Positions 23,401 through 59,813 of a stretch of DNA of 64,000 bases are shown piece by piece (the stretch's first letter is position 1; the number at the start of each line of letters is the position of its first letter). Location: positions 2,272,125 through 2,336,124 of the forward strand of contig RPFO01000130.1 of NCBI GenBank assembly GCA_009746045.1, in the 5' to 3' direction. The position numbers were made by a program, and so were the translations under genes. Origin of the DNA: Mesostigma viride (Eukaryota; Streptophyta; Mesostigmatophyceae; Mesostigmatales; Mesostigmataceae). The notes below the pieces were generated by a model. The model had not been told where the DNA came from. It did no database searches and was given only the letters and a program-made list of their open reading frames with translations.

Positions 23401-26400
23401 TCCAACCTGCGGCGGCGGGTGGTGCAGATTCGGAGATTCGTGCACCCGCAGCGCGCCGCGATTCTGGACCTGCTCTCCGAGAACAGCGAGGGGCCGCAAT
23501 GTGGGTGGCTGGCTATACTGTAATGTAGTAGAATAGACCCATTGCACAATACGTAGAGCGTGAGGGGCCGCCATATTGGACCTGCTCTCTGAAAACAGCG
23601 GAGGGGCGCAATGTGGGTGCTGGGTATAAATAGAAGTGTGGTGGAGGGGCCTAATGTGGGTGGGTGTGGCTCTAACTTTTGGAAGAAGCAGCGCCTTGTG
23701 CATGCAAGCTGTAGATACAAATAGGGCATTAAGGAGCATACAACACAGAAGTTGATAAATAAAATAGGAGTATAGGAATAAAGTAAATAGGGTGTAAAAG
23801 GGGCAGTATGTGGGTTGCCAGCAATTTTCTTTTCCTCACTGGAAAGATATATATATATATATATATATATATAAGAAGATGTATGTAAGAAGATATATAT
23901 AAGAAGATATATTCCATATATATATGAGTCTGGTACAAGGGGCCTCGTTTGGGTCACCAGGGTTACAATAGAAAGGGTCGCAACTGGGTGAGCTATTGGG
24001 GGCTGGATGGGGTTGACCCCGTCATGCATATGATATGGATAGGACAAGAAGGGGTAAAGTCTAGGGGTAGCGCTTCTAGGGCTGAAAGGCTAAGATTTCA
24101 GGTCGCATCCTGTGAAGACACATTCACGGTATGCAAATGCCACAGCATGCGTAGCTTGGGTGACATGGTTGGTGTAAAGGGGCCCGGGTGTTGATGCTGG
24201 TCTCTAGATGAGATGTATGGCAAAAGGGGCTGTTGCTGGTTTGATAAATCTTCACAGTAGTAGATGATGGAATGTATTATCATCACCATTATTATTGTTG
24301 TTGTTATTACTGCTTGTATCTATCGTCAGGTGCCCGGGGTGTGGTACAACAGCTTCCCTAGCAGAGAAGCAAGAAACTGGGGTTGAAAGCCTAGCAGAGA
24401 AGCAAGTGGTGTTATTGAGCACAGTTTTACCAACTTCTGCTGCATCGTTGAGAACTATTACTTTGTGTGCGAGTGACTTACGTTTCAGTGGCCAACCTCG
24501 CCTTGCCTCTGTTTTCTGTTTCCCCGTTACACATTTGCCCTCCCCCCCACCAGGGCATGACTTCCACCGGCAAAAGCTGCGCGAGGTGGCAGAGACTACG
24601 ACACGGCTGCTGGAGGACCTGAACGTGGTGTGGGAGCGAGCCAACGTGCTGCTGGTGCGTGGGCCAGGATAATTTGGTGCTACGAAATCATGTGTGCTAG
24701 GCGAATGTCTTGGTAATGACTCACGTGTATGCCAAGGTGCTGCTGGAGCGTGGACTATGGAAAATCATCATTGGAAAATCATCATTGGCTGGGTGATCGC
24801 TTGATCTTCTACTCTCTTGATCCCCTACTGTTTATATACTGGTATTCTATTGATCCCCTACTGTTTATATACTGGTATTCTATTGATCGCCTACTGTTTA
24901 TATACTGGTATTCTATTGATCCCCTACTGTTTATATACTGGTGTTCTATTGATCGCCTCCTGTTTATATACTGGTATTCTATTGATCCCCTACTGTTTAT
25001 ATACTGGTGTTCTATTGATCCCCTACTGTTTATTTACTGGTATTCTATTGATCCCCTACTGTTTATATACTGGTGTTCTATTGATCCCCTACTGTTTATA
25101 TACTGGTATTCTATTGATCCCCTACTGTTTATATACTGGTATTCTATTGATCCCCTACTGTTTATTTACTGGTATTCTATTGATCCCCTACTGTTTATAT
25201 ACTGGTGTTCTATTGATCCCCTACTGTTTATTTACTGGTATTCTATTGATCCCCTACTGTTTATATACTGGTATTCTATTGATCCCCTACTGTTTATATA
25301 CTGGTGTTCTATTGATCCCCTACTGTTTATATACTGGTATTCTATTGATCCCCTACTGTTTATATACTGGTATTCTATTGATCCCCTACTGTTTATATAC
25401 TGGTGTTCTATTGATCCCCTACTGTTTATATACTGGTATTCTATTGATCCCCTACTGTTTATATACTGGTATTCTATTGATCCCCTACTGTTTATATACT
25501 GGTGTTCTATTGATCCCCTACTGTTTATATACTGGTATTCTATTGATCCCCTACTGTTTATATACTGGTATTCTATTGATCCCCTACTGTTTATATACTG
25601 GTGTTCTATTGATCCCCTACTGTTTATTTACTGGTATTCTATTGATCCCCTACTGTTTATATACTGGTATTCTATTGATCCCCTACTGTTTATTTACTGG
25701 TATTCTATTGATCCCCTACTGTTTATTTACTGGTATTCTATTGATCCCCTACTGTTTATATACTGGTATTCTATTGATCCCCTACTGTTTATTTACTGGT
25801 ATTCTATTGATCCCCTACTGTTTATATACTGGTATTCTATTGATCCCCTACTGTTTATTTACTGGTATTCTATTGATCCCCTACTGTTTATATACTGGTA
25901 TTCTATTGATCCCCTGCTGTTTATATACTGGTATTCTATTGATCCCCTGCTGTTCTTCTGCGATTCCGTTTACATATTCTATTGATCCCCCCCCTGGGGT
26001 ATATCAAGTCCGCCCCCCTTAGCCACCGCCACCTCCTGCCCAAGATTTGGCATTTATTGATACTTGTTGCTAATTGCCTTTGCGCAAACGCCGACGTGCA
26101 GTCGGCGCAGACGGCCTGCCCCCGCTCCCCCCCCCTAAGCGCACTCACAACGATAATCTGTGGAACCTTGCCATTTGCCACGTGCACGAAACAGGACGAC
26201 ATGCGGTCGGCGCACGCCGAGGCGGTCTCCCACCGCGTGTACCTTCTGTCTGTCGTCACAGGCATATTCCTCCCCCTGACTTTCATCACGGGAATGCTGG
26301 GCATCAACGTGGGGGGCTTGCCCATGGCGCACGAGGACTACGGCTTCTCGGTCATCGTCGTCTTCTGCCTCATCTGCATGGTGGTCGAGCTCATCGCGTT

Positions 26401-29349: not shown

Positions 29350-30722
29350 CAAGGAGACAACCAGCGCAGGCCAGAAATCGGGAGAATCCGGACCATGGTA
29401 GCTCGAGCCTGCCGTTATCTTGTCCGCGTGTTCGAGTCGTTCAGGATGATGAATATGAATGGTGATGGAAATGTGTATCCGTGTGCATTGAAATTATGGC
29501 TGGCTTACGTGTAGAGCGACTAGATGACCTAGACAGTGGGGCCGGAAACAGCATGCTTGATCAGGGCGTGTGTTTCGAGCCTAGCTGGCCGGGAGTGTCT
29601 AGTGGTGAGCACCATTGCTGCGATCGCTCTCCCACCATTTACGAGGAAATACCCGCAAATGGAAAACCACTGAAAAGGTAGCTAGTCAGTCATCACGTTA
29701 GCCATGCCATGATTCCAAACGTCCAAGAACTGCACACGGTGTAAAGGCAAAAAGCCGGAGGACATCACTTCCAAATGTGCGGCGGGAACCAAAAGCCCGC
29801 GGATGCCAGAAAACATCGTGTTGCTGCAGCGACGCGACGATGTGGACAACGAATCCAGTGCCAAGCTCGGAACGGCCGCAAAGGAGATCTGGCATCACAG
29901 GGTTCAGATGTGCGGAGATACTATGCGATCCAGCCGGTCCACGACCTGTTTGTAGAGCTTGTGCCAAGGGGCAGCACCGGCCGAACAGATGTGGGTGACG
30001 TTGCAAAAAACATCGGACTTGACGTCCGAGCATAATGTCTCGGTCATAGTCTTTGACCAATAAACGCTGCAAGAGTTCAACAAGAGTCGTGATGAAATCA
30101 ACACGATAAGAACAAAGACGGGAAAAACGATGTAACTGAGAAAGAACAACACCATATTTTGCTGTGTGGGAAAGGAGACTGTGAATATTGGGGTAACGAA
30201 TAAAAGGAACTTGCTGGTATTTAGGATCCTTGCGCTTATCATAGACAGCCGTACGCCAGCCCTTCTTGTCATGGGTAATGTTAAGATTGAGGTAATTGCA
30301 ATGAGTATCCTCCGACGTGAGCTTTAATGTGAGGGACGCTTGCGGGTAGATGCCAGGCAGACCAGCGGTGATATACACATGGGTTGCGAAATCAGGGTTG
30401 TCGAAAGCGATGACATCATCAATGTATCGACATGTATGGATAAAACGCCTGATGAGAACAGCATCGTTTGAGGCAATGAGATTCTCCATGAATGCAAGCT
30501 CATAAGTGTATAGATAGAGGTTTGCAAGGAGCCCGGCACAGTTAGTGCCCATAGGGATGCCGATAGCTTGTTGGTATACATTGCCCGCAAAACAAATGAA
30601 GGTGTTATCAACAAGATAAGAGATCCAATGAACAAGGTCAGCCTTCGTGATAATATAATTATAACCATCCCGCACGATAGCACCTGCCGCGATCCCTGAG
30701 AGCCACGTTGCCGTGGGCTTGC
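29350..30722 (-). mobile_element. 5'-truncated Penelope-like element, 1373 bp, with 6-bp target duplication
   Basis: On the minus strand it runs from within the RT domain to the common 3' terminus (…GTCTCCTTG). It keeps motif B (IPMGTNCAGLLANLYLY) and YIDD. Against the copy at 7-10.6 kb it is close to identical, with a 3-bp (GGA) and a 4-bp (CCGG) insertion near the end of the ORF, the latter shifting frame. It is a dead 5'-truncated copy. Confidence 0.9.
29698..30675 (-). pseudogene. Truncated Penelope reverse transcriptase
   Basis: This is the C-terminal third of the RT (YIDD present), starting within a codon upstream of motif B. It has no GIY-YIG domain and no motif A, so it cannot act alone. 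Confidence 0.85.
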
Positions 30723-31060
30723 TCCTATAGTCAGCGAAAGTTGGTGCGAGAGGTCCCCAGTTCGATTCCGGTCGGATTCATTTGCAGATCGCGTTTTCCG
30801 CGTTTTCCGCGGACCGGCACTGAACGCAAATGGTTTTCACCTTTGCGGCGTGCCAAATCAGAATAACATGCGGAATGCACAGAAATTGCGAGAATCTTGA
30901 AGGTGATGAGTATATGATGTTATTTCATCGCTAAGTTTGTGCGATTTGCAATGTCGATAATTTTATTGATGACCATCGCCGCGGGGGTCCAGTCGTTGAA
31001 AATTTTCACGTTTTTTCTACTATTTCGTTGAAAATTTGCCATTTTGTAAAAATTTTCACG

Positions 31061-31299
31061 CTTTTTCTACTATTGGCTCAAGGCGTATTTTTCTCGTTTC
31101 TTGTTTTCAGGATTAGATAAAAAAAGTGGTTTTTCATTAAAAAATAGGTTACACAGCCATTTTAAGTCACCCAGGTAAAGCTTTCGTGCTGAAGGCGTAC
31201 GCCTCATCAAAACACACCATATCTAGTCATCACATGGACCTCATGAAACCACATCATCCCATGGCACGCATTTCTGCAGTCACATGTGCTGGGTTTTCT
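31061..31299 (-). mobile_element. 3'-terminal segment of the HUH transposon, minus strand
   Basis: It is the inverse of 47520-47757 with few changes, read from ...GGGTTTTCT at 31299 to TTTTTCTACTATTGGCTC. At 47.5 kb the same segment directly follows the stop codon of the HUH element's last ORF. Here it is separated from its coding part by the retrotransposon that ends at 39823. This shows that the retrotransposon segment sits inside the left HUH copy. Confidence 0.75.
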
Positions 31300-31860
31300 G
31301 TCGCGCGCCGTTCCGATTTGCACGAGTATTGGCTTTACGCGGGGCCGCCACGCGGCCGGCCCGGGGGACGAGGCAAGGCAGCTAGGCATTGCGCGTGTGC
31401 GAGTTGTTACGCCTTTGGCATTTGGGCCTTACGGGAGCAACGCATGCGCCGTAGAGCGACGCGCAGCACTGGGAGTTGACAGCGGTACTGACATGCGTTA
31501 CCAGGAGGTCATTGCCAACGCTGGCAAGCAGCACGCACTGGCTGCTGGACTACAACACGGACCAAACTAGGCTGCCAGCCTGGCAATTATGCGGGTCGTG
31601 CAGGCTGAACATGCACGTGCACGCAAACTGGCGCTTTATTGATCTCGAGAACTGTCCGCTGCAGGTAGATAATGTCGTGCAATCTTGGCATTGATATTCG
31701 GCAGGCTGGCAAGCCGCTTTTGTGAATGCGACCAGGCAGCTTTTCTCGTCAGGGCCAGCCAGCTAGTTGTCGTACATGCTTGGTGATATAGTTGTTTGGC
31801 AAGCTCAGGGGTCGGCAAGCCGACACTGGAGTGATCTGCGACAAGGGCATTTTGTCGTCT

Positions 31861-31892
31861 GGGATTTCTGGCCTACGCAGGTTGTCTAGTTG
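31861..31892 (+). mobile_element. 32-bp Penelope 3'-end insertion with 12-bp target duplication
   Basis: The insert begins GGGATTTCTGGCCTACGCAG and ends GGTTGTCTAGTTG. ATTTTGTCGTCT is repeated exactly at 31849-31860 and 31893-31904. Confidence 0.9.
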
Positions 31893-31904
31893 ATTTTGTC
31901 GTCT

Positions 31905-33072
31905 AAAGAGAAAGTGCTAGATGATATGTTTCATATGCGGAACAGGGAGTCGTTGCAGACAACGACTTAGGATTTTGTGTACTTTTAGGTCTTGGTGCTG
32001 ACCAAAGCCGAGTGCCACGGAGTAGCTTTGGTGTAATTGAAGCAGTATGGACGACAAAGCGGTTGTCGTCAGGATCAGATACTGAGCGTGGCTACGAGGT
32101 AAGGCTGACGCAAGATATTGCGTAAGTGTGAGGCATTCATTGGGATAAGTGTGTGTTTCCACCAGGGCGTTGGATGTAGCTCTGTGTGGATCCTTGAACT
32201 CTGTCTTGGTCATGGTGGTGCGTGGCAAGTGTGGCCAGCCCTCCTTTCTTTCATCGAGCCCAGCCATTGCTGAAACAGAGCTGCCAAGTTAGGTAGAGTA
32301 TTGGTAATAAAAACGTTATTTCATTTGCAACAAAGAACACAGTGTGAAGCCTAACCTAGTCATACCTCACTCTCAGGTCTCACCTTTTTGAGAAGTGCAG
32401 TTGGCACTGGCTTCTCGTCTTATCCACACAGAGCTAACTGAGAGTTGGTAGGTAAGCTTGGTCAAGGCTGAGGCCTCTTCCTGAATACTAGGAATAGAGG
32501 TAAAGCTGGCTGTGCAAGGCTGTCAAGGCAGGCAGCTTGCAAGCAGGTCCTGAAGCAGCATTGGTTTTCAGCTTTCAGGCAATTGTTTTCTTTCTCCTTG
32601 CCCTGTGCATCTGGTGTGGTGCCAGCAAGTTGAAGGGGCCAAGTGGTGGCCCCTGTGGTGCATACTGATTTTGCACTACGTCTGCTCACTCTGTAGCCCA
32701 GTGATTGGTTGCAGAAACGGTGCTCACGAGAGCACAAGCACGAAGCTTGATGGCAGACCAAGATGGTCAACATCAAGGGGGCGCCAACCCCAACCAAGGC
32801 ACGGTGGTGGATGGCGCACCGCGGCAGGGTGATGCTGCAGGCACGCAGGCATCCTTGCCAACTGGCGACAACGGCAATGGGCCACTCGTCCCACCAGCAG
32901 CCTCGGGTTCCGGGATGGGCAATGGGGGGGGGTCGCCGATCGGAGTGGTGGCGTTGTTGGTGGTGGTGGTGACACATCGGTCGTCAACGGAGGGCTGGGT
33001 GGCAGCGCGGCAGGTCCTCAAGATGGAACAGTACTTCCCATCACACCATCATCGCAGATACGGCTCAGCGGG
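31905..33072. other. Leader of the retrotransposon, possible LTR end and Gag start
   Basis: No full LTR can be proven because no second copy exists. A TGGTTGCAGAAACGG stretch at about 32706 could be a tRNA-primer binding site. A reading frame beginning MADQDGQHQGG (32748) looks like a Gag N-terminus but is broken before 33.07 kb. Confidence 0.35.
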
Positions 33073-36000
33073 TTGGCAGGCACCGGGCTAGCGCCGGGGC
33101 CAAGTGCCAGCCAGGGGGTGGGTGCGGATGTGTTGCAGCAGATTTTGCAACATGTAGCACAATCCCAACAACAGATGCAGCAGCAACAGCAGGCTATGCA
33201 GTTGCAGCAGCAGCAGACGGCGCAGTTGGCGGCGCAGATTGCAAGTCTGCACGCGACGTGGACCGCGCAAGCAACGCTGACACCAGCGCCGCACCTACCA
33301 CACCACAGCCGCAAGTGTTGCAGCCGCAGGCGCAAGTTTGGCAGCCCCAAGCGCAGGTGTTGCAGTCGCAGGTGCCTTTAATGTCGCAGGCACCATCCGT
33401 GCAGCCACAGGCGCAAGCGCCACAGATGCAGGCGTCGCGGCAGCATGTGCCTGGGATGCCTAGTGCACAAACTGGGTTTTCTTTTGGCGTGCCGCATGCG
33501 CCGGCACCAACAAACCCAGCGACGCCACGGCTACAAACACCGTGGGTGCGGCCAGGCATCATTCCGGGATTGCAGCGAGGCAGTCCATACACGGTGGAAC
33601 GAGGCTATGGGCTGGAGCCGAGGTTTGTGGCTACTCTACCAAGGACGCCAAGCATGCCGGTGGGCTACAATGGGTCGCCGATTGAGGGATCCAAGGTGGG
33701 AATGCCGGTGCAAGCGCAGGTGGAGCTCAAGGACAGGTATACTGCTGACGGTGGGCTTGTTGACATCAACCAAGCCTATTGGAAATATAAGACTTGGCTG
33801 CACCAGCAGTATATCGTCACGCATAACCAGCTGCCGAAGTCCTTTGAGATGGACAACATCCCAATGTTTTTCTCGGGCAACACGCAAAAGCTGGTGCAGC
33901 GGTGGGTCACAGGCTACCATGAGGTGGCGCTGAAGACGGGAAGATCCGATGTGTGGTACAGGCGCGACCAACAAGGCTTGCCGGACTACCAACACGTGGT
34001 ATTTGACGTCGACCCTGCCGAGGAGCTGTGGGAACTGCTGCGCGCCAAGTACGCCCACTCCTCCACCAAGGCGGAGGCGGAGTGGCATGATTTCAAGGTG
34101 GGGGACAAGGAGTCGCCTGACGCCACGATGGACCGCCTGGAGGTCTTGCGGGATGAGGTCCCGGCATGGACGGAGGCGGAGGCGTGTGAGAAGTGGCTCA
34201 AGGCGTTGGGTCCAAAAGCTGCCATGATCCCACAACCTAGATTTGGTTGTCATTGGGACCTGGCCCAGCTGTGCACGGAAGTGCATGCGTTCAACCGGCG
34301 ACAGGCACGGGGTCTCCCGGACCTAGTGGAGCTGGTACGCCAAGAAGTCGCCCAAGCGCACAAGGGTAACAGGGTGGGTGGCGCGCAATCAGGCGGTGGA
34401 GGGTCCAGCGGTGGAAGGGGTGGACCAAGCAGCCGGCAGTTTGGGTCGCAGGCGGACAAGCCAGCCAGCGCGGGGGGCGACAACACGGCCTCCAGCAGCA
34501 CCGGCCAGGCGACGGCTGACCCGCACAAGGCATGTTGGATCTGCGGGAAGCCAGATCACGTGAAGCGGGCCTGCCCAGCCCAGTGCAAGAAGGAGCACGC
34601 GGCTGGAACGCCCGCCCATGCTCCGGCAGGGTGCAAGTACCCAGTGGTCACCAAGACCGTGCAAGCACATGCAGCGGCCATGGTGGCGGCCGACAGCACG
34701 CCAACAGAGCAGGCAGCTGAGGTATCGGCAGCGCCGGCGTCACCCAGCCAACCGAGTGGGCAGGCGGCGGGGATGGAAGCGTATGACGCGTATACGCTGG
34801 TGGAGCAACCCGACTTGTTCTGGGCTCCTATCCATGCCGTCGAGGTCCAGGCAGCTACCCGAGGCAAGCAGGCACGGGCATTGCCGTCGTTCCTACCAAC
34901 CACGGGAAATGGTGAGGGGGGGCCACCCCAGCTTCCTGCATCGTTCCCGGCAGGTTCAACCGGCGGTGAGTCATCGCTGCTGGAGCACCCGAACCCCGCC
35001 GACGCCGAGCAGCGGCGCAAGCTGCCACCATTCTTGCCAGTGGATGGAGTGATTGATGCTCCCTTGTTTTCTGCCAGGCAAGTGATTGATGGCTGCGGGC
35101 AGCGGGGCATCACGTTGGTGCACCAAGCAGCTGCGGCACTGCAGCGGTGCGCCGACAGCCTAGACGCACGCACATTGCCGGTGGCGGAAACTGCGCGGCG
35201 GGTCACCATGCCAGTTATGCCGGCAACCCCGGCAGACGTCCCAGCACCAACCATGCCCCGGGAAGCAACCCGCGAGGAGCGGATGTCACGGGTGCCGAGG
35301 ACAGTCACGGTGGCAAAGCACCCTGATGGGTCCCCGGCTATCGCTTTCCAGGCAATCAGCGAGGACGGCACTTGTTGGGGCCCTATGGTGTGCCCCAGCG
35401 CAAAGTCCGTCACCAAGCTGGATGGCGGAGCCGGGCCGCTCGTGATCACCATGGAGCTGGCCAAGATGTGTGGTGCGACCCGTGAGAACGGCGGGCTCAT
35501 AGACAGCACCGTTCTCGTGGAGGGATGGAAAGGGCCAGCGGCGCGACCCGATGCAATGACTTCCATGCTGATCAACGTCATCCTCAACCCCACGGACCCA
35601 AAGCGGATGGCCTGCGTGGCTGTGCCGGCCTTGGTGGTCGACAGGTGTGGGTATGCGGCCCTTATCGGGATGGACGTCATGTATCGCCTCGGGCTCATAA
35701 TTGACCCTTGGCTGGAGGTTGCGACCTACCGCCGTGATTGGCAGGGGGAGGGGAAGCAAAAGGCGCTTCTTCCCATTCAGTGCAGCAGCGACACGGAGCC
35801 TAACCCGCAGGGGGTGGTGTCGCTAGACGCGTGTGTGGCTGCAGTGGTGTCGCCCGCCAGCATAGAGGTGGAGCCAGGGGATGCGGCTGAGAACTGGGGG
35901 GGGGGCGTGTGGCCGGACGCGCAAGCGGTGCACATGGCGCAAGCGGCTAGCGACAAGCGTGCGCGCGATAGGCACCGGTGTGTGCTGCCTGCGGCATTGC

Positions 36001-36103
36001 CAGCGCGGGATACGCAGAGGCAAAGTTGGCTTGCCCAGGTTGCGCCCCTGCCACGCCTGCGCGATGTGCGCACACGGGCGATGGCATGTCAGGCACTGCC
36101 CAA
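33073..36103 (+). pseudogene. Retrotransposon Gag and protease, continuous up to the palindromic insertion
   Basis: An N-terminal Gln-rich part starts at 33073 in another frame. From 33258 a single frame runs to the insertion point. Q/P-rich linker, then a capsid-like helical region (about 33750-34380: YWKYKTWLHQQY, ELWELLRAKYAH, WLKALGPKA). Next is a CCHC zinc knuckle CWICGKPDHVKRAC at 34533-34574. The retropepsin-like part has LDGGAGPLVITMELAK (about 35418; active-site DGGAG instead of the usual D-S/T-GA) and YAALIGMDVMYRLGLIID (35653 on). At 36099-36103 the frame meets the 887-bp palindrome. The last codons before the insertion and the first after it are in phase, so Gag, protease and methyltransferase were one polyprotein. 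The element is defective because of the insertion and later breaks. Confidence 0.82.
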
Positions 36104-36990
36104 AGTTACGTTAAACAGTGCCGGAACCTTTTTGCCGCCTGAGGCAAATCGGGCCGGAACACTATTTTGCCCGGAATAACCACTTCCGAGCACCCAAGTT
36201 AATTCGGCCGAATTAACTTGGGTGCTCGGAAGTGGTTATTCCGGGCAAAATAGTGTTCCGGCCCGATTTGCCTCAGGCGGCAAAAAGGTTCCGGCACTGT
36301 TTAACGTAACTAAAACCTGGCCTCGTGGAGGGGGACGAAGAGCCCGAGACATCCGCCTAGGCCGCTGAGCACGCACCACTAAATGCGCCGGAGCTGCCTC
36401 AGTGAGGATTCGAACCCCTGACCTCCAAGGTGCACAGGTTTTAGTTACGTTAAACAGTGCCGGAACCTTTTTGCCGCCTGAGGCAAATCGGGCCGGAACA
36501 CTATTTTGCCCGGAATAACCACTTCCGAGCACCCAAGTTAATTCGGCCGAATTAACTTGGGTGCTCGGAAGTGGTTATTCCGGGCAAAATAGTGTTCCGG
36601 CCCGATTTGCCTCAGGCGGCAAAAAGGTTCCGGCACTGTTTAACGTAACTAAAACCTGTGCACCTTGGAGGTCAGGGGTTCGAATCCTCACTGAGGCAGC
36701 TCCGGCGCATTTAGTGGTGCGTGCTCAGCGGCCTAGGCGGATGTCTCGGGCTCTTCGTCCCCCCTCCACGAGGCCAGGTTTTAGTTACGTTAAACAGTGC
36801 CGGAACCTTTTTGCCGCCTGAGGCAAATCGGGCCGGAACACTATTTTGCCCGGAATAACCACTTCCGAGCACCCAAGTTAATTCGGCCGAATTAACTTGG
36901 GTGCTCGGAAGTGGTTATTCCGGGCAAAATAGTGTTCCGGCCCGATTTGCCTCAGGCGGCAAAAAGGTTCCGGCACTGTTTAACGTAACT
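36104..36990. mobile_element. 887-bp palindromic element P-S-P-S'-P with 5-bp target duplication
   Basis: Three copies of a perfect 208-bp palindrome (36104-36311, 36443-36650, 36783-36990; arms AGTTACGTTAAACAGTGCCG...) alternate with a 131/132-bp spacer in opposite orientations. The whole element is therefore one near-perfect palindrome. The target CCCAA is duplicated at 36099-36103 and 36991-36995. The spacer holds GGTCAGGGGTTCGAATCC, a tRNA T-arm / box B-like sequence (36672 on; inverted at about 36403-36421). No ORF is coding. The superfamily is not clear; a foldback or MITE-like DNA element or a hairpin-borne insertion is possible. Confidence 0.88.
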
Positions 36991-37707
36991 CCCAAGGGTG
37001 CTGGGGGGAAGCGGCGCCAGCCGGGTGCCATCACGCAGTACCCCGGCTTTAGTGCAGAGGTGCTGGAACGCATCCCGGACTTCGGGCGTGCCACCGTCGT
37101 GCTGGAGCTGTTCGCAGGTATGGGTGGCGGCATAGCCGGTTTCCTGAGCGGCGGGGGGGTATGCAACAAGCTCATTGCGGTGGAGGCATCGCTCACAGCC
37201 AGGGCGGCATATTTGCACCACTGCGCTATCTTGTCGCAAGCATACCCAGCACAATTTCCTCCATCCGCCTGGGCTGATGTCTTCAACGAGGGCACTCATG
37301 AGGTGCGCTTCCTTGGGCAGCAGCAGCTGCGCCGCCTCATCTCACAACATGGCGAGGTAGGGTTGGTCATTGCTGGCTGGGAGTGCCAAGGCATGAGCCA
37401 GGCTGGGCATGGCCAAGGCCTTGCCGACAGCAGGAGCGGCCTATTTTGGGACATGCTGCGCATTGTGGGCGAGCTCCAGCAGCTGCAGCAGGTGCCACCC
37501 GCCTACTTATTCGAAAATGTAGTGGCGGTGGACAGTCCCAGCCCCACTGTTCGGGAGGATTGGGGCACCATTGTGGGTATTTTGGGGGAACCCGTGGTGT
37601 CGGACAATGCCGGCCGGGCTGGGAGGGAATACCCATCGGCTGCGCGCGTTCTGGACCAACATCGCTGGCCAAGGTTCTACGCAGGCGGTGATGCAGCACG
37701 TCGCTAG
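36991..37707 (+). pseudogene. C5-cytosine DNA methyltransferase domain within the retrotransposon polyprotein
   Basis: Motif I is VVLELFAGMGGGIAGF (37098-37145). The motif IV region is GWECQGMSQAG (37375-37407), with Glu where most C5-methyltransferases have Pro before the catalytic Cys; motif VI is LFENVVAV (37507-37530). A single extra G in the GGG at 37616-37618, absent from the inverted copy, shifts the frame so this ORF stops at 37707. The true continuation, including a motif VIII-like THRLRAFWTNI, is in the next frame. The enzyme would methylate cytosine C5 using S-adenosylmethionine. In a retrotransposon it may mark the element's own copies. Upstream it is in phase with Gag-protease once the palindromic insertion is discounted. 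Confidence 0.85.
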
Positions 37708-38731
37708 CCAGATTGAGCTGCCACCGGTCGATGTCGTGTTGCCCAGTCAACCCACGGCGCAGTATGTGGAGCACGATGATCAGGCACCCTACGCGCCCGT
37801 CAACAAGGCAGGCGCCCCCATGCGAGCACTGCCCACCCTTGTCAGCTACCAAGGGTCCCAGGCTTATCGTGACCGGGGCAAGGGGCTTGTGTGGGAGCGT
37901 GCCAGAGGTCTCTTGGTTCAGCCACCCGCGGGGTTTCGTGAACTAAGCATGGGCTTTGCCGAAGGTGCATCCGCAGCCCCAGGTCTCCTGGAGGTGGAGC
38001 GATGGTCGCTCATTGGCCAGGCCATGTCAGCCTGGCAGGTGGGGTACACCTTGCTAGCAGCGCAAGGTGTGCGGAGGGTGCAGCGGGTTGCATTCCCCGT
38101 CCATGCTGCGACTGCACAGGCGCAGAGTGACACTTCTCCACCCACCGGTGCTGCGCCGGCTGGTGTGCCTAAGGCGGAGCGTGCAGGCGGCAGGGGCCAA
38201 GGGTGGTCCTACACCTGGCGGCAGGTATGGTCAGTCGTCCTCATGACTGCGCTCCTCACCAGCTGTGTGTTCTCGGCGGCTCCGGCCTTTCAGTTCCTCG
38301 TGGCGAAGGCCCAACGGCAGGTGGGAGAGCGAGGCATTACGCCGGGAGCGGCGGCATACATGTTGTTTCAGTCGGCGGCCGTGCGCGGTCCCACGGTGGC
38401 TGTGCACAATGTCTCGAGCGCAAGCGACCCGGCAGCAAACCATCAATTGAGCGTCTGTGAGCACCTCACAGCTGAGCAACGTGCGAGGCTGCTCAAGTGG
38501 CTGGAAGGTGCGCGCAACGCGTTTGCATTCAGCAGTCAAGAGCTGGGATGCTACAATGGTGGGCAGATGCGGGTCCCGCTGGACACCGATCAGCCACTGT
38601 TTCACCGACAACACCGGCTGAGTCAGGCTGATCTGGAGTTTGTGCAGCAGCAATGCGAGGAGCTGGAGGCTGCTGGCATCATTCGGTCATCCGCATCCTT
38701 CTTGGGCGCCACGACGGTCGCGGCCACATAG
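37619..38731 (+). pseudogene. Methyltransferase C-terminal half and beginning of Ty3/gypsy-type RT
   Basis: In frame 2 it reads RLRAFWTNI, a variable target-recognition-like region, then RELSMGFAEG and LIGQAMSAWQVGYTL, which fit methyltransferase motifs IX-X. A hydrophobic helix (SVVLMTALLTSCVFSAAPAF, about 38233) follows. The last part matches the N-terminal edge of gypsy RTs: AFSSQELGCYNGG, PLFHRQHRLSQADLEFVQQ and EELEAAGIIRSS. It stops at the hairpin loop near 38731, so no catalytic RT motif is present. Confidence 0.78.
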
Positions 38732-38733
38732 TT

Positions 38734-39823
38734 GGATGTGGATGACCGAATGATGCCAGCAGCCTCCAGCTCCTCGCATTGCTGCTGCACAAACTCGAGA
38801 TCAGCCTGACTCAGCCGGTGTTGTCGGTGAAACAGTGGCTGATCGGTGTCCAGCGGGACCCGCATCTGCCCACCATTGTAGCATCCCAGCTCTTGACTGC
38901 TGAATGCAAACGCGTTGCGCGCACCTTCTAGCCACTTGAGCAGCCTCGCACGTTGCTCAGCTGTGAGGTGCTCACAGACGCTCCATTGATGGTTTGCTGC
39001 CGGGTCGCTTGCGCTCGAGACATTGTGCACAGCCACCGTGGGACCGCGCACGGCCGCCGACTGAAACAACATGTATGCCGCCGCTCCCGGCGTAATGCCT
39101 CGCTCTCCCACCTGCCGTTGGGCCTTCGCCACGAGGAACTGAAAGGCCGGAGCCGCCGAGAACACACAGCTGGTGAGGAGCGCAGTCATGAGGACGACTG
39201 ACCATACCTGCCGCCAGGTGTAGGACCACCCTTGGCCCCTGCCGCCTGCACGCTCCGCCTTAGGCACACCAGCCGGCGCAGCACCGGTGGGTGGAGAAGT
39301 GTCACTCTGCGCCTGTGCAGTCGCAGCATGGACGGGGAATGCAACCCGCTGCACCCTCCGCACACCTTGCGCTGCTAGCAAGGTGTACCCCACCTGCCAG
39401 GCTGACATGGCCTGGCCAATGAGCGACCATCGCTCCACCTCCAGGAGACCTGGGGCTGCGGATGCACCTTCGGCAAAGCCCATGCTTAGTTCACGAAACC
39501 CCGCGGGTGGCTGAACCAAGAGACCTCTGGCACGCTCCCACACAAGCCCCTTGCCCCGGTCACGATAAGCCTGGGACCCTTGGTAGCTGACAAGGGTGGG
39601 CAGTGCTCGCATGGGGGCGCCTGCCTTGTTGACGGGCGCGTAGGGTGCCTGATCATCGTGCTCCACATACTGCGCCATGAGTTGACTGGGCAACACGACA
39701 TCGACCGGTGGCAGCTCAATCTGGCTAGCGACGTGCTGCATCACCGCCTGCGTAGAACCTTGGCCAACGATGTTGGTCCAGAACGCGCGCAGCCGATGGG
39801 TATTCCCTCCCAGCCGGCCGGCA
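38734..39823 (-). pseudogene. Inverted copy of the methyltransferase C-half and RT start
   Basis: On the minus strand it repeats 37608-38698 with a few substitutions (for example NIVGQ for NIAGQ, NHQWSV for NHQLSV) and without the extra G. Its frame is open from the HUH ORF at 40068 through the junction at about 39824 to 38623. The junction fuses HUH-element codons (...LQDREN) to retrotransposon codons (TAGRLGG...). I regard the fused ORF of 481 codons as a by-product of the rearrangement, not as a selected gene. Confidence 0.8.
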
Positions 39824-39829
39824 GTGTTT

Positions 39830-40319
39830 TCGCGGTCTTGTAACACTTTCTCAATGAGGGAGTCGTCATCCAAGTCATTGTTGTTACGCGGAGGGCGTCG
39901 CACCTCATCGAGGATGGCGTCCATGTCTATTGCCATGGCCTCCCTCTTGGCAGCCCATTCTTGCCGCAGCCCAGCACGTGCGTTGGGAAACACGGGGGCC
40001 AACTGATCTGTCTCAAAGTAACGCTCACGCGGATTAAACAACGCGCACTCTAAGGCTCGTGCAATCACATGCAGTGAGTCGGCTCTACGATGATTTCGAA
40101 TGCTGATTGGGCACGGGGATAGTCCAGACCCCTTCCAACTAGGAATTTTGCGTCTAGGGAGAAGCGACCTGTATTGAACATGTGCGCCAATGTCCTGATC
40201 AAGCTAGGCTCGCGGCTGATGTCATTGTGATGTTTGTACCAGTACACCGCAGCCCGTTCTAGTATGTTGTAGGCATTCAGACACATCCTGCCCTTCAAAG
40301 TGGGCGATCCATGGAGCAT
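39830..40319 (-). pseudogene. C-terminal ORFs of the HUH element, left copy
   Basis: Minus-strand frames LKGRMCLNAYNILERAAVYW (40290 down) and MIARALECALFNPRERYFET (40068 down) correspond to 46959-47521 in the right arm. The last about 22 codons are lost at the junction with the retrotransposon. Function unrecognised. Confidence 0.5.
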
Positions 40320-40363
40320 GCATGTACTCTATTCTACCCTCTTCCATTTCATCCATGTCAATG

Positions 40364-40904
40364 TCATGCCAGGTACAATATTTCGAAGCTCTGCTCGTTT
40401 TCAGATTTGAGCAAGTAGCCGATCATCCCCGAATAGTTGATCTTGTGGCTGTTCTTCACCTCCCTAATTGTGATACTTGGTTTCCTTTTGTCAAATTTGC
40501 CTTCATCATCCACTGGGTTGCCCCACCCAAGCGCGGCCTTACAAGTAAGTTCCAACTTCAGTGTACGCCCGTGTGGACGTGGCCTGAATTTCCATTAACA
40601 TATGGGCATGTTTGTGATCTTCTAGTTGGCCTTCCTCAATGATTGACAGGCCCTTTTTACCATTCTTTTCATGGAATGCAGTTATAATGCCGATTTCCTC
40701 ATCTGTCAAGTGACGGCTTCCGCCAGACACGGTCATGTGGACTACGAAGGTTTTCAGCACGGTTGGAGCCTTGCGCTTCTTCTTGGGCTTCAGGGGAACA
40801 AAGTCCTCCCCTTCGTCTTCATCATCTTCACCCGGTGCCTCTGGCGCTTCATCTGCATCCAGCACCCCTTCAACTTGGATGGCACAATCCTTGACAGAAA
40901 ACAT
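40364..40904 (-). pseudogene. HUH (Rep-like) endonuclease of the transposon, left copy
   Basis: From ATG 40904 (minus): an acidic linker, PLKPKKKRKAPTV (nuclear-localisation-like), motif 1-like VVHMTVSGGSRH, then the HUH motif in DHKHAHMLME, and after a frame change INYSGMIGYLLKSENE with a Tyr-x-x-Lys motif (YLLK). The order motif 1, HUH, YxxK with one Tyr is that of rolling-circle Rep nucleases and of Replitron transposons. A 1-nt frame disruption just after HMLME is present in both arms, so it predates the palindrome or hides an intron. The right copy has ACG at the position of this ATG. Confidence 0.7.
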
Positions 40905-40952
40905 AGTGATAAAAGAAAATATGAGGAAACAAACAAGTTGAAAACACTTACC

Positions 40953-41298
40953 GTTTTTTAAGCTGAGCGTTCACATGCTTGGTCAGCCCACGCCTCGTCC
41001 TAGCGGTCCAAGGGGGCGTGCAACACGCACAGGTCAGGGGGTTGGTGGCTTCGACAGGCCCATCATCTTCTTCAAAGGTCACATGCACAGGCACCTCCTG
41101 GGACAAGTCAGGCGTATCATCTAGCACATTGTCAATGTCTTACTCGTCATCATCGTACACTACTTTGTTACGACGACGCAGCGTCCGCCCCTCCACCTCA
41201 GGCGGGGGATGGTTCTCCGCCTGAGGAGGCAGGCTGTCCTCCGGTGGAGGGGGCGACGGCGGCGTCGGAGGTGGCGGGCTGCTTGCTGGGCCGCTCAT
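40953..41298 (-). pseudogene. Acidic/Pro-rich N-terminal exon of the HUH element, left copy
   Basis: It starts MSGPASSPPPPTPPSPPPP and has an in-frame TAA after VVYDDDE, then continues open with DIDNVLDDTPDLSQE, a Cys/His patch (CACCTPPWTARTRRGLTKH) and a GTAAGT donor. The same TAA is in the right arm. Either there is an intron or read-through here, or the ancestor was already dead. Confidence 0.45.
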
Positions 41299-41310
41299 TG
41301 TCGTAGTTAC

Positions 41311-41690
41311 CACTCCTTGTGATGATTGCATGTCCCCTTGACCCAAGGATGGCTTGTGGGGTCTTGCATGGGGTAGCACTGCCGCGGCAGTTACCACTCC
41401 TTGTGATGATTGCACGTCCCCTTGACGCAAGGACGGCTTGTGGGGTCTTGCATGGGGTGGCACTGCCGGCAGTTACCACTCCTTGTGATGACTGCATGTC
41501 CCCTTGACGCAAGGACGGCTTGTGGGGTCTTGCATAGGGTAGCACTGCCGGCAGTTACCACTCCTTGTGATGATTGCATGTCCCCTTGACACAAGGACGG
41601 CTTGTGGGGTCTTGCATAGGCTAGCACTGCCGGCAGTTACCACTCCTTGTGATGATTGCGTGTCCTCGCGACGCAAGGATGCACTAGGAA
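41311..41690 (-). repeat. About 80-bp minisatellite, five copies (left arm)
   Basis: GTTACCACTCCTTGTGATGA recurs about every 80-87 bp. The mirror array is at 45597-45977. Confidence 0.9.
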
Positions 41691-41850
41691 GTTGGGCTGT
41701 GAGATTTTTCTCACAAAACCTCAACTTTGTGGCGATTGGCATGTTTTACATGAGAAATCTCAGTGAGTCCTAATAAATCTCACCAAAGTACGTGTTTCGG
41801 ATGAGAATGGGTAAAAAAATCTTAAGCAAAGTTAACATTCTCGTGTTTAA

Positions 41851-43192
41851 CCCTTAGTCCGCTGACCCATTTTTGGCACTTTCATACCACTGAAAATAAA
41901 AAAAATCATAACTCACAGGCCACAACTCCAAACACCCCCAACCAAGATGCTAGGAGTATCTACACTTCAAGGGCTTTCAGAATATGCAGTAATACCACGG
42001 CTTTATCAAAGCATTTGGATGATAGCTCTACTCAAAGTTGGCCAAAAGACGATCTTTTTTCCCCAAGAAAAGTCTACCCCCCCCTAACTTTCCAGGTAGG
42101 GTAGGGAATCTCAATATCAACATTGGACAACTTACTTGGATAGTCCAATGGGGGTTTCCTTGGGTCAGACCACCCGGATAACCCATTAGACCTATATAAG
42201 GTGCTCATATACGTGTGTGGGTTACGCGCGCGTAAACAGCCATCTATGACATGCAATACAAGAATGCATTATAACAAGCTATAAAAGATTGCCAAAGGTG
42301 CTGGAATACAAACATGTTACCTACCTGCATTAACGAAATGCTATGCTCCAAAGAAATGCCATAAACTGGTCACTTTCAGGGCTAATACCGCTCTTTACAG
42401 CAGGCATGGAAGCTTGCTGAAAGGTGCACTAAAATCTCGTCAAATATAATGCATGGGAGACGTATTCCGCTGCAAAAGACACGCAAACACGTTGCCGTAT
42501 CTGGCTCGTACACGTCCTAACCGGATTCCAGTGGCCGGGACCCTCATATCTCACACATACCATTGCTTTACAGGCATAGGTCGCCATAGCCGCATCATTC
42601 ATGCATCCTTTATGATTACCAGTTGATGCTGCGTTCAAAGATTACCTATAAACGCGTTCGCATTCCCAGCAAACGCATCAGCGGACATCCCGTACCTAAT
42701 TTGGATGCTTGGGCTGGCGCAGACTGCCCGGCCATGAGGATAAAATGGAAATGTGATAGGCGATGACTTGTCTGGCACTGACGACCAAGAAGGCAGTATT
42801 TTCCTACCTGTATTTTCCCAATCCTAAAAATCTGGCCATGTCTGACCTACGAAAATCACGCATCATCTTTCTGAGCAACATTCTAAACCGTTTCTAGCCG
42901 CGAGACGCAAAATTTCCCTGATAATGGCACGTTGGCAGCCATATCTCGTCACGCGCGCGCGCGAGTGAAAATTTCCCGCCAAAGTCACGTGACCCCCTAT
43001 GATTACAGCCCTATAATTACCAGGCTATGGCGGATATTACCCCCAAACCTATGCATCACCTTCGTCCCTAAGTGTTCCCGGACCCACCGGACAACTGTCC
43101 TCCGTCACGGGTGGCGCGGCGCTCTCGGCGCGGCGCGAAATTCGACCGTCAGTCAAACGCCCCGACAGGTCGGGGGGTTAGCTGACTAGGGG
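41851..43192. mobile_element. piggyBac-like non-autonomous element at TTAA
   Basis: About 1.34 kb present only in the left arm. The right arm has the empty site (TTAA at 45421-45424). The ends are CCCTTAGTCCGCTGACC and, inverted, CCCCTAGTCAGCTAACC, following TTAA at 41847-41850 and followed by TTTTAA. TTAA targets and CCC-starting inverted repeats are piggyBac hallmarks. No transposase ORF is present; short ORFs inside are random. Confidence 0.8.
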
Positions 43193-44289
43193 TTTTAAAA
43201 GTGACAGCTTTTTTGGTGGGGATATGACGTTTGATAATACATAGTAATTGTTATATATTTATTGCATATCTCCGTTATAGGAGTTATATTTGGTTTTATA
43301 ACATTACTTAGTGGGGAGATCATGTAATATTAATCATGCATATTACACGTCGCAAGGCACTTGAATCATCATCTATAAAAGGTTGCCATGGCATGGGCTG
43401 AATGATGATAAGTAACGTTTGCTGTTTGTTTTTGTGTTTAAAAGCGGTTGCAGGGGGGGGGGGGGGGTACGCGGTGATTGCCATGAGACGCAGTTACTTA
43501 GGTAACTTTACCATTCATCCACCCACTAGACATGGAAAATTGACATGCACAAAAGGTTGCTTTGCCACGTAAGTGGACTACGAGACGGAAGCAGCATAGT
43601 GGATGTTCTATGCATATGGCAAGGTCATTTGCTGCCTAAACGGTGCTCTTTCGTGTGTCTGAAATACTTGAATGCGTGCATACGCTCCGGCTTTCCTCCC
43701 CCCCCCCCCCCCTTTGCCTGGTGTACATATGCCAGCAACACAGGCCCGTTGTGGCAGCTGCTTGGGACCTACGTTGACCTGCTCGGGACCTATATTCACC
43801 ATGGGGTTAATGCATTCATGTGGGGGTAATCTTCCTTGGCGCAAGATGATCCAGACGACACGGCGGCGCTCGGTAGGTAGCACGAACCTACGCAGATAAT
43901 GATTGCCAGGCAGTTTACTCCTTAGCTTGAAGCGACACCGTACTACTGCGTGCCTCTGTTTTGCCGGCAAAACGTCTCAATATGCATACTTTCTATGTAC
44001 TGGCCGTCAGTGCATGAAACCGGGGAGTATGATTGGAATAGTAGTTGCTGCGGCCAGTCACATAATGGTGTGACTTTAATACATCACCAGACAAAAATTA
44101 AACAGGGCGCAGCTTGCCGACATCTCTCATAGTGAAAGTGCTTGTTGCACGTGACATATTTAGGCGCGTAGATTGGACTAGGTATCTAAGGGTTATCTAG
44201 ATTTTTTTCATATGTTTGTACATTCCTTATCATTTTGGACATAGCACTGCCTCTGGTGGCCTACATCCACCTTTAGGGTCAGAGTATTG

Positions 44290-44325
44290 TTTCATGTGTG
44301 TCTGTTTCTCCTCTTCCAGCCAGGC
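44290..44325. other. 36-bp loop at the centre of the HUH palindrome
   Basis: The arms meet at CAGAGTATTG (44280-44289) and CAATACTCTG (44326-44335). The loop between is a single-copy, T-rich sequence. Confidence 0.9.
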
Positions 44326-45596
44326 AATACTCTGACCCTAAAGGTGGATGTAGGCCACCAGAGGCAGTGCTATGTCCAAAATGATAAGGAATGTACAAAC
44401 ATATGAAAAAAATCTAGATAACCCTTAGATACCTAGTCCAATCTACGCGCCTAAATATGTCACATGCAACAAGCACTTTCACTATGAGAGATGTCGGCAA
44501 GCTGCGCCCTGTTTAATTTTTGTCTGGTGATGTAAGTCACACCATTATGTGACTGGCCGCAGCAACTTCTATTCCCCTTCTATTATACTCCCCGGTTTCA
44601 TGCACTGACGGCCAGTACATAGAAAGTATGCATATTGAGACGTTTTGCCGGCAAAACAGAGGCACACAGTAGTACGCTGTCGCTTCAAGCTAAGGAGTAA
44701 ACTGCCTGGCAATCATTATCTGCGTAGGTTCGTGCTACCTACCGAGCGCCGCCGTGTCGTCTGGATCATCTTGCGCCAAGGAAGATAGCCCCCATGTGAA
44801 TGCATTAACCCCATGGTGAATATAGGTCCCGAGCAGGTCAACGTAGGTCCCAAGCAGCTGCCACAACGGGCCTGTGTTGCTGGCATACACCAAGCAAAGG
44901 GGGGCGGGGGGGGGGAGGAAAGCCGGAGCGTATGCACGCATTCAAGTATTCCAGACACACGAAAGAGCACCATTTAGGCAGCAAATGACCTTGCCATATG
45001 CATAGAACATCTGGACACTATGCTGCTTCCGTCTCGTAGTCCACTTACGTTGCAAAGCAACCTTTTGTGCATGTCAATTCTCCACGTTTAGTGGGTGGAT
45101 GAATGGTAAAGTTACCTAAGTAACTGCGTCTCATGGCAATCACCGCGTACCCCCCCCCCCCCCCCCCCTGCAACCGATTTTAAACACAAAAACAAACAGC
45201 AAACGTTACTTATCATCATTCACCCCATGCCATGGCAACCTTTTATAGATGATGATTCAAGTGCCTTGCGACGTGTAATATGCATGATTAATATTACATG
45301 ATCTCCCCACTAAGTAATGTTATAAAACCAAATATAACTCCTATAACGGAGATATGCAATAAATATATAGCAATTACTATGTATTATCAAACGTCATATC
45401 CCCACCAAAAAAGCTGTCACTTAAACACCAGAATGTTAACTTTGCTTAAGATTTTTTTACCCATTCTCATCCGAAACACGTACTTTGGTGAGATTTATTA
45501 GGACTCACTGAGATTTCTCATGTAAAACATGCCAACCGCCACAAAGTTGAGGTTTTGTGAGAAAAATCTCACAGCCCAACTTCCTAGTGCATCCTT

Positions 45597-45977
45597 GCGT
45601 CACGGGGACACGCACTCATCACAAGGAGTGGTAATTGTCGGCAGTGCTACCCTATCATGTTTACAAGACCCCACAAGCCGTCCTTGCGTCAAGGGGACAT
45701 GCAATCATCACAAGGAGTGGTAACTGCCGGCAGTGCTACCCTATGCAAGACCCCACAAGCCGTCCTTGCGTCAAGGGGACATGCATTCATCACAAGGAGT
45801 GGTAACTACCGGCAGTGCCACCCCATGCAAGACCCCACAAGCTGTCCTTGCGTCAAGGGGACATGCAATCATCACAAGGAGTGGTAACTGCCGCGGCAGT
45901 GCTACCCCATGCAAGACCCCACAAGCCATCCTTGGGTCAAGGGGACATGCAATCATCACAAGGAGTGGTAACTGCGA
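45597..45977 (+). repeat. About 80-bp minisatellite, five copies (right arm)
   Basis: Units contain CATCACAAGGAGTGGTAACT and GACCCCACAAGCCGTCCTTG. They lie directly before the ATG of the acidic exon (45980) and may be part of its 5' region. Confidence 0.9.
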
Positions 45978-45979
45978 CA

Positions 45980-46326
45980 ATGAGCGGCCCAGCAAGCAGC
46001 CCGCCACCTCCGACGCCGCCGTCGCCCCCTCCACCGGAGGACGACCTGCCTCCTCAGGCGGAGAACCATCCCCCGCCTGAGGTGGAGGGGCGGACGCTGC
46101 GTCGTCGTAACAAAGTAGTGTACGATGATGACGAGTAAGACATTGACAATGTGCTAGATGATACGCCTGACTTGTCCCAGGAGGTGCCTGTGCATGTGAC
46201 CTTTGAAGAAGATGATGGGCCTGTCGAAGCCACCAACCCCCTGACCTGTGCGTGTTGCACGCCCCCTTGGACCGCTAGGACGAGGCGTGGGCTGACCAAG
46301 CATGTGAACGCTCAGCTTAAAAAACG
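45980..46326 (+). pseudogene. Acidic/Pro-rich N-terminal exon of the HUH element, right copy
   Basis: ATG 45980. It reads as in the left arm: Pro-rich start, in-frame TAA at 46136-46138, then an open stretch to the donor GTAAGT at 46327. The intron would run 46327-46388 (ending TCAAG). The phase does not join cleanly to the HUH frame, so the splice model is uncertain. Confidence 0.45.
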
Positions 46327-46388
46327 GTAAGTGTTTTCAACTTGTTTGTTTCCTCATATTTTCTTTTATCACTACGTTTTCTGTCAAG

Positions 46389-46916
46389 GATTGTGCCATC
46401 CAAGTTGAAGAGGTGCTGGATGCAGATGAAGCGCCAGAGGCACCGGGTGAAGATGATGAAGACGAAGGGGAGGACTTTGTTCCCCTGAAGCCCAAGAAGA
46501 AGCGCAAGGCTCCGACCGTGCTGAAAACCTTCGCAGTCCACATGACCGTGTCGGGCGGAAGCCGTCACTTGGCAGATGAGGAAATCGGCATTATAACTGC
46601 ATTCCATGAAAAGAATGGTAAAAAGGGCCTGTCAATCATTGAGGAAGGCCAACTAGAAGATCACAAACATGCCCATATGTTAATGGAAATTCAGGCCACG
46701 TCCACACGGGCGTACACTGAAGTTGGAACTTACTTGTAAGGCCGCGCTTGGGTGGGGCAACCCAGTGGATGATGAAGGCAAATTTGACAAAAGGAAACCA
46801 AGTATCACAATTAGGGAGGTGAAGAACAGCCACAAGATCAACTATTCGGGGATGATCGGCTACTTGCTCAAATCTGAAAACGAGCAGAGCTTCGAAATAT
46901 TGTACCTGGCATGACA
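46389..46916 (+). pseudogene. HUH (Rep-like) endonuclease, right copy
   Basis: It has KPKKKRKAPTVLKTFAVHMT, SGGSRHLADEEIGI, HUH in HKHAHMLME (about 46665) and, after the frame change, SHKINYSGMIGYLLKSENE (46832 on) with Tyr-x-x-Lys. Such enzymes nick one DNA strand and stay bound through Tyr. One catalytic Tyr and no helicase suit the Replitron group. Both arms share the same frame break, so the copy looks inactive unless spliced in an unseen way. Confidence 0.7.
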
Positions 46917-46922
46917 TTGACA

Positions 46923-47521
46923 TGGATGAAATGGAAGAGGGTAGAATAGAGTACATGCATGCTCCATGGATCGCCCACTTTGAAGGGCAGGATGTGTCTG
47001 AATGCCTACAACATACTAGAACGGGCTGCGGTGTACTGGTACAAACATCACAATGACATCAGCCGCGAGCCTAGCTTGATCAGGACATTGGCGCACATGT
47101 TCAATACAGGTCGCTTCTCCCTAGACGCAAAATTCCTAGTTGGAAGGGGTTTGGACTATCCCTGTGCCCAATCAGCATTCGAAATCATCGTAGAGCCGAC
47201 TCACTGCATGTGATTGCACGAGCCTTAGAGTGCGCGCTGTTTAATCCGCGTGAGCGTTACTTTGAGACAGATCAGTTGGCCCCCGTGTTTCCCAACGCAC
47301 GTGTTGGGCTGCGGCAAGAACGGGCTGCCGAGAGGGAGGCCATGGCAATAGACATGGACGCCATCCTCGATGAGGTGCGACGCCCTCCGCGTAACAACAA
47401 TGACTTGGATGATGACTCCCTCATTGAGAAAGTGTTACAAGACCGCGAAAACAAGGCGCGGCAGAAACGCCCTATTCAGGTGGACAGCGATAGCGAGTCT
47501 TATGAGTCTGAACTCGAGTAG
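46923..47521 (+). pseudogene. C-terminal ORFs of the HUH element, right copy
   Basis: Two frames, NILERAAVYWYKHHNDISRE (about 47012) and MIARALECALFNPRERYFET (47210), end in an acidic tail ...DSDSESYESELE. Not recognised. They are probably one original C-terminal region separated by a frame shift. Confidence 0.5.

Positions 47522-56472: not shown

Positions 56473-57351
<879 letters not shown>

Positions 57352-58488: not shown

Positions 58489-59813
<1,325 letters not shown>

Follow-up and report, generated by a model that had tools for sequence, protein, structure and literature searches.

A predicted DNA methyltransferase within the polyprotein of a broken, likely Gypsy-type retrotransposon of Mesostigma viride

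Retrotransposons with a DNA methyltransferase of their own have been described before, in a related alga and in dinoflagellates. In Klebsormidium nitens a DNMT3 enzyme is encoded in the Pol open reading frame (ORF) of a Gypsy element, the order of its domains being unstated in the main text of PMC5890265. Two SymbioDIRS-Dnmt3 enzymes of Symbiodinium methylate CG sites de novo in yeast (PMC5890265), DNMT3 has been described in long terminal repeat (LTR) Copia elements and in DIRS elements of streptophytes and dinoflagellates (PMC12344493), and accessory domains are reviewed in PMC6338049. Mesostigma viride stands at the base of the Streptophyta and has 5-methylcytosine, most abundantly at CG sites (PMC6947507). 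The subject here is a 64,000-nucleotide stretch of its genome (the window; contig RPFO01000130.1 of assembly GCA_009746045.1, positions 2,272,125 to 2,336,124), in which a first-pass annotation had placed a methyltransferase inside a retrotransposon polyprotein, citing de Mendoza and colleagues (PMC5890265) for captured cytosine methyltransferases in dinoflagellates and charophyte algae.

The reading that we favour, with modest assurance, is that of a broken, likely Gypsy-type retrotransposon with a C5 methyltransferase in its polyprotein. The enzyme, for which a DNMT3 fold is predicted, lies between a protease-like domain and the apparent start of the reverse transcriptase (RT), and is expected to methylate newly made DNA of the element itself, before or at insertion.

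The order of Gag, protease-like domain and methyltransferase

The order Gag, protease-like domain, methyltransferase is shown by the window, where an RT-leader-like region follows, and by further gene models from the host. The Gag-protease ORF runs on the plus strand from 33258 to 36103, where it meets an insert, as part of a 973-residue ORF extending to 36179. Its Gag part is 98-100% identical over 133-308 residues to the M. viride models P0030, P0033 and P0035 (BLAST). Because an ORF at 33073-33381 is in a different frame from the main one, a further frame break in Gag, near its start, is likely. A zinc-knuckle-like stretch at 34530-34577 scores 17.7 bits with zf-CCHC of Pfam (cut-off 20.8), and this domain lies below the cut-off in all three proteins concerned, the window ORF, P0029 and P0032. 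P0029 is an M. viride model in which a TMEM128 domain is fused to the element's Gag, either a gene-model fusion or an insertion into a host gene.

The protease-like domain (35289-35783, plus strand) contains an active-site-like LDGGA at 35418-35432, with ALIGMDV downstream, and is 47% identical (73/154) to that of P0031, which has LDSGA. The window piece has no Pfam match, that of P0031 matches Asp_protease_2 at an E-value of 0.034, below the cut-off, and the AlphaFold2 model of the fold was not confident (mean pLDDT 33.9). The domain is therefore called protease-like from its motifs and from the weak, sub-cut-off Pfam matches of its relative P0031. The active site reads DGGA throughout the window family, P0001 included, and DSGA in P0031; the protease of the window family may be weak or dead.

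Between this domain and the methyltransferase lies an insertion of 887 bp (36104-36990; inverted repeats I6, I8-I10, I18 and I19), a near-perfect palindrome (99.8% by self-BLAST) with CCCAA on either side, at 36099-36103 and 36991-36995. Insert and duplication together measure 892 bp (3 x 297 + 1), the Gag-protease part is in frame 0 (modulo 3) and the N-terminal methyltransferase part in frame 1; thus the two were in one phase before the insertion. Both the palindromic insertion with its exact CCCAA duplication and the common phase of Gag, protease and methyltransferase had been proposed in the first-pass annotation; the self-BLAST and flank coordinates bear out the former, and the arithmetic, with uninterrupted gene models, the latter. 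The insert is composite, with three perfect 208-bp palindromes (36104-36311, 36443-36650 and 36783-36990) and two spacers, each the reverse complement of the other. A spacer contains GGTTCGAATCC, which we take to resemble a tRNA T-arm. Twelve microRNA- or small-RNA-like Rfam matches, located in the palindromes and at the centre of the inverted duplication described below, were all under the gathering scores and were taken as chance.

The four matches of the first protein search were all M. viride gene models, and 4 of the 13 models eventually retrieved (P0001, P0002, P0004 and P0031) contain the join of Gag or protease to methyltransferase without the insert. P0001 combines protease and methyltransferase, motifs I-III being absent from the model, and P0002 has the linker running into motif I and past it. 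P0004 belongs to a diverged family (60% identity over 142 residues of protease end and linker, 79% over 71 residues of methyltransferase), and P0031 has Gag, protease and a methyltransferase 62% identical to that of the window (BLAST). Two further models, P0007 and P0032, reach no further than the roughly 20 residues ahead of motif I, P0007 crossing the insert junction uninterrupted; P0003 begins within the methyltransferase, and the remaining six match Gag only. The set is biased, some models having been found via the methyltransferase, and copies without a methyltransferase may exist. Eight of the 13 were scanned with Pfam, and no RT was found in these; P0007, P0030, P0033, P0034 and P0035 were compared with the window by BLAST only.

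It might be supposed that a host methyltransferase gene came to lie beside a Gag fragment through chance or rearrangement, in a locus heavily rearranged by palindromes and an inverted duplication. This is rejected, as scarcely credible, because other M. viride gene models share the join: it recurs in 4 of the 13, including a subfamily at 62% methyltransferase identity, 2 more reach the stretch just ahead of motif I, and the phase is preserved once the insert length is allowed for. As gene models can contain false introns, their evidence for an unbroken join is good, not final. Capture of a methyltransferase by a retrotransposon polyprotein, with at least two subfamilies in M. viride, is supported by these gene models.

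The methyltransferase, its conservation and its possible role

The N-terminal part of the methyltransferase (36997-37632, plus strand) contains ELFAGM as motif I (37105-37122), WECQ as motif IV, its catalytic cysteine encoded at 37384-37386, and FENV as motif VI (37510-37521). The ORF that encodes it, 36901-37704, matches PF00145 with an E-value of 1e-11 (45.3 bits, cut-off 22), a domain also above its curated cut-off in P0001, P0003, P0031 and P0036. The C-terminal part (37616-38092, plus strand) contains motif VIII (HRLRAFWTN, 37634-37660), motif IX (ALPTLV) and motif X (GQAMS, 38015-38029), and is 97% identical to P0003 over 205 residues. Between motifs VI and VIII the frame changes from 1 to 2, at a place where three gene models (P0001, P0003 and P0031) are unbroken, as is the inverted second copy within the window. 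The first-pass annotation had reported this break ahead of motif VIII together with motifs I and VI and motifs like VIII and IX-X; the break is real, with relatives open there, and all the motifs could be located, motif IV in addition.

The motifs stand in the order I, IV, VI, VIII, IX, X, without rearrangement, in the window pieces, P0031 and P0003. Among the alignment rows that span them, the motif IV cysteine is present in 10 of 10 and the R-x-R of motif VIII in 13 of 14. Of the solved structures, those of DNMT3 (DNMT3A and DNMT3B) come nearest to the predicted fold, and no ADD or PWWP domain was found by Pfam. The best PDB match by sequence is 4onj (E-value 0.002), an entry named 'DNA methyltransferase' that we take to be tobacco DRM, with DRM2 entries next. 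In DRM enzymes motifs VI-X precede motifs I-V, and membership of the DRM family is ruled out by the non-rearranged order.

Conservation points to constraint on the methyltransferase. The window family and P0031 are 64% identical in its N-terminal part (117/183) and 55% in its C-terminal part (54/99), as against 47% in the protease (73/154), 40% in Gag (42/104) and 31% in the linker from protease to methyltransferase (28/89). The excess over the protease has p 0.003 for the N-terminal part and p 0.009 for the whole methyltransferase (171/282), and P0004 gives the same trend (56/71 in the methyltransferase, 85/142 in protease end and linker, p 0.006). This ranking supports constraint, with the qualification that domains differ in their natural rates and that percentage identity is a measure other than the ratio of nonsynonymous to synonymous substitution rates (dN/dS).

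On the favoured reading, of an element that marks its own DNA, the methyltransferase would have been under selection while the element was active, as its conservation suggests. As a part of Pol it would be packed into the particle with RT, to judge from the kind of element. There it would act on double-stranded complementary DNA (cDNA), most likely at CG sites, by comparison with the two Symbiodinium DIRS enzymes in yeast (PMC5890265). Maintenance enzymes of the host would then retain the mark, so that a new copy would resemble methylated host DNA from birth. Self-marking by the enzyme and its purpose, whether hiding or self-restraint, are matters of inference, and the thought that the element hides from host silencing, or recruits it, is a hypothesis; similar ideas were raised earlier in the discussion of PMC5890265.

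Several points weigh against such a role. Other C5 methyltransferases have PC in motif IV, a glutamate ahead of the cysteine being unusual, and the motif is ECQ in 7 of 10 rows; because of this, methyltransferase activity is not certain. R-x-R is kept in 15 of the 22 rows of a wider set having motif VIII, the seven exceptions all resembling the metagenome group of P0005 and P0012. By sequence the PDB gives DRM as best match (E-values 0.0022 and 0.0013), not DNMT3; the family profile finds in the PDB only M.HhaI, at an E-value of 0.35, and P0003 matches no methyltransferase there. The conservation tests cover only the N-terminal part and the whole methyltransferase against the protease, and the gene models may contain false introns, as P0001, without motifs I-III, suggests. 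On the side of the element, the protease-like domain has DGGA instead of D-S/T-G and a model that failed in confidence; no LTR pair, RT body, RNase H or integrase was seen in the window copy, which breaks off where RT begins; and the copy has no distinct deficit of CpG. In the literature searched, no assay of the enzymes of this subfamily was found, and the nearest known case, the Gypsy DNMT3 of K. nitens, gave no methylation in yeast, a result that its authors call inconclusive (PMC5890265).

The odd motif IV would suit a shifted substrate, and the enzyme might be active in the polyprotein on host DNA or on RNA, whether the tRNA primer or genomic RNA, and not on cDNA. RNA methylation has been proposed for LINE-type elements (PMC5890265). 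An RNA target is opposed by the predicted fold, which is nearest to DNMT3 enzymes acting on DNA, and by the activity of the two SymbioDIRS-Dnmt3 enzymes on CG DNA in yeast (PMC5890265); we regard this alternative as distinctly unlikely. A little less improbable, and still unlikely, is that the domain is a non-catalytic passenger with a structural or regulatory part, retained within the Pol fold. ECQ in place of PCQ, the loss of R-x-R in 7 of 22 rows and the modest excess of conservation would all fit such a passenger; against it speak the motif IV cysteine, kept in all 10 spanning rows, the R-x-R, kept in 13 of 14, and the resemblance of all seven losses to one metagenome group.

The RT leader, the inverted duplication and the genomic setting

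Downstream of the methyltransferase, and ahead of the RT leader, is a hydrophobic stretch of 19 residues (38234-38290, plus strand; the top Kyte-Doolittle window of the C-terminal part, 1.93). A similar sequence is present in P0006, a record named Prorocentrum lima, whose own top window is elsewhere. A region that looks like the RT leader and first RT part follows at 38440-38715 on the plus strand, presumably the start of a Gypsy RT, and is cut off there by an inverted duplication. This RT stub matches nothing in the PDB and nothing meaningful in Pfam. In a one-sequence search, the inverted copy of the leader region aligned with the post-methyltransferase part of the metagenome protein P0010 over 60 residues (19/60 identical, E-value 7e-8).

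The second copy, of the C-terminal methyltransferase part and the RT leader, lies on the minus strand at 38717-39815 (repeat I2, 1,099 nt, 99%), and its ORF, 38623-40203, is open where the plus-strand copy is broken. Together, 37604-39827 forms a head-to-head inverted duplication of 2.2 kb with almost no spacer. The arms have 14 differences, 8 of them near the centre (38693-38711) and 6 outside it; these comprise two silent and nine amino-acid-changing codons, five of the nine at the centre, and are uninformative on selection. The duplication could be the result of fold-back repair, a cDNA hairpin product or an assembly artefact. A near-perfect 2.2-kb inverted repeat, almost spacerless, is what would be expected if palindromes and inverted duplication were in part artefacts and the layout beyond 37604 unreal, a case that would leave the join of Gag, protease and methyltransferase unaffected. 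Such an artefact is quite improbable, given that the arms differ at six places outside the centre, as a copied read would not, barring error.

The element occupies a segment of 8.5 kb (31300-39824). A giant palindrome (39825-47453, with its centre near 44307) contains this segment in its left arm and, at the corresponding place in its right arm, 66 bp (47454-47519). Outside the element the palindrome flanks pair 31062-31299 with 47757-47520, and 31300 is the first base that the two arms do not share. From this comparison comes the left edge of a candidate 5' LTR and leader (31300-32704, plus strand), which begins, LTR-like, with TG at the junction 31299-31300. There is no second LTR, and so no LTR pair, within the 64-kb window. 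The only tRNA scanned for was initiator tRNA-Met, and its primer binding site, allowing up to 3 mismatches, has no match between 31300 and 33000 (41 in the whole window, 51.4 expected). The right edge of the segment is broken off within the methyltransferase, so that an intact insertion cannot be made out. Of the earlier claim of an LTR polyprotein with a methyltransferase between protease and RT, what stands is the join of Gag, protease and methyltransferase; an LTR pair is missing from the window, and the RT amounts to its leader and first strands only, as judged from motifs and the match to P0010. The window copy is dead, with its methyltransferase frame break, a likely Gag break, the insert, the inverted duplication and no RT body.

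The ratio of observed to expected CpG is 0.64-0.79 in the coding part, 0.60-0.91 in other stretches and 1.02 in the palindromic insert; TpG plus CpA is 1.48-1.54 in the coding part, as against 0.84-1.34. As a trace of methylation these figures are suggestive at most. The left arm of the giant palindrome has about 1.35 kb extra (41851-43198). Elsewhere in the window, 7012-10074 is an ORF of 1,020 residues without a Pfam match, which we take to be Penelope-like, with a stretch resembling GIY-YIG close to the N end, and a fragment of it lies on the other, minus strand at 29698-30777. Long simple or tandem repeats are open in several frames at 1000-2400, 24720-26000, 56400-57400 and 58350-59850.

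Relatives elsewhere and comparison with known systems

A profile search gave at least 27 matches, namely 4 M. viride models, the P. lima record and 22 metagenome proteins; one metagenome cluster, P0012, represents 61 sequences. In P0010, on a contig of 9.1 kb, the methyltransferase precedes a region with homology to the window's RT leader, and the order methyltransferase then RT leader therefore exists outside Mesostigma in at least one case. A tree of 18 rows, made up of this family and one other row (P0038), had 3 of its 15 inner branches well supported. The only clade used joins the window with P0003, P0031 and P0006 (support 98/100). P0006 is 52% identical over 167 residues, the post-methyltransferase linker included, and this P. 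lima relative reflects either contamination of a data set or horizontal transfer. No protein named K. nitens was among the matches listed in three protein searches. A bacterial or viral origin was considered: no relative was confirmed by tblastn in IMG/VR (eight queries) or in GTDB genomes (one query), with patterns short and close enough that distant kin could be missed.

It is possible, if rather doubtful, that one ancient capture of a DNMT3-type enzyme gave rise to a long-lived and widespread lineage of Gypsy elements that methylate themselves and keep protease, methyltransferase and RT in a fixed order, present in streptophyte algae and many environmental eukaryotes and brought by horizontal transfer to a dinoflagellate. 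The metagenome relatives suggest that elements of this kind are commoner than the two published lineages. Retrotransposons are normally the targets of methylation, and an element with a de novo methyltransferase of its own reverses that relation. M. viride combines a basal position among streptophytes (PMC6947507), published bisulfite data and such elements in two or more diverged subfamilies, and so the question of why elements methylate DNA can be addressed in young and old copies within one unicellular host.

No report of a methyltransferase-bearing retrotransposon in M. viride was found in the open-licence PMC main texts searched, and in these the host, the second subfamily, the conservation ranking and the metagenome relatives were likewise not seen. 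The suggestion of the first-pass annotation that the host lineage may be new is sustained to the extent that Mesostigma is mentioned 0 times in the main texts of PMC5890265 and PMC12344493. Its further suggestion, of a possibly new position between protease and RT, has to be set beside P0010, from another organism, where methyltransferase and RT leader come in the same succession, and beside the K. nitens enzyme, which is placed within Pol (PMC5890265).

Among described systems, animal DNMT3A and DNMT3B are the closest solved folds to the predicted one, and DNMT3A has motif VIII, HRxRxFWxN, in common (in a weak P0010 alignment, E-value 0.21); they differ in an identity of about 25%, in the ADD and PWWP domains, of which Pfam finds none here, and in motif IV, which here is ECQ or PCQ. 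Plant DRM is alike as the best PDB sequence match and unlike in its rearranged motif order (PMC5890265). SymbioLINE-Dnmt of Symbiodinium is also a retrotransposon-borne cytosine methyltransferase, but in a LINE, with the methyltransferase in an ORF upstream of RT and from an orphan DNMT lineage (PMC5890265). SymbioDIRS-Dnmt3 has a DNMT3 in a Pol polyprotein, there with RT, but in a DIRS element with a tyrosine recombinase, whereas the front of the window element consists of Gag, a zinc-knuckle-like stretch and a protease-like domain (PMC5890265). KnitGypsy-Dnmt3 of K. nitens differs in its host, of another class of alga than the Mesostigmatophyceae, and in its DIRS-like repeats, the window element being without a visible LTR pair (PMC5890265). 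It shares with the M. viride element, itself only likely of Gypsy type, a DNMT3-related, non-rearranged methyltransferase in the Pol of a streptophyte alga's retrotransposon, with conserved catalytic residues and a methyltransferase that appears constrained, there with a nonsynonymous to synonymous ratio (Ka/Ks) below 0.2 (PMC5890265).

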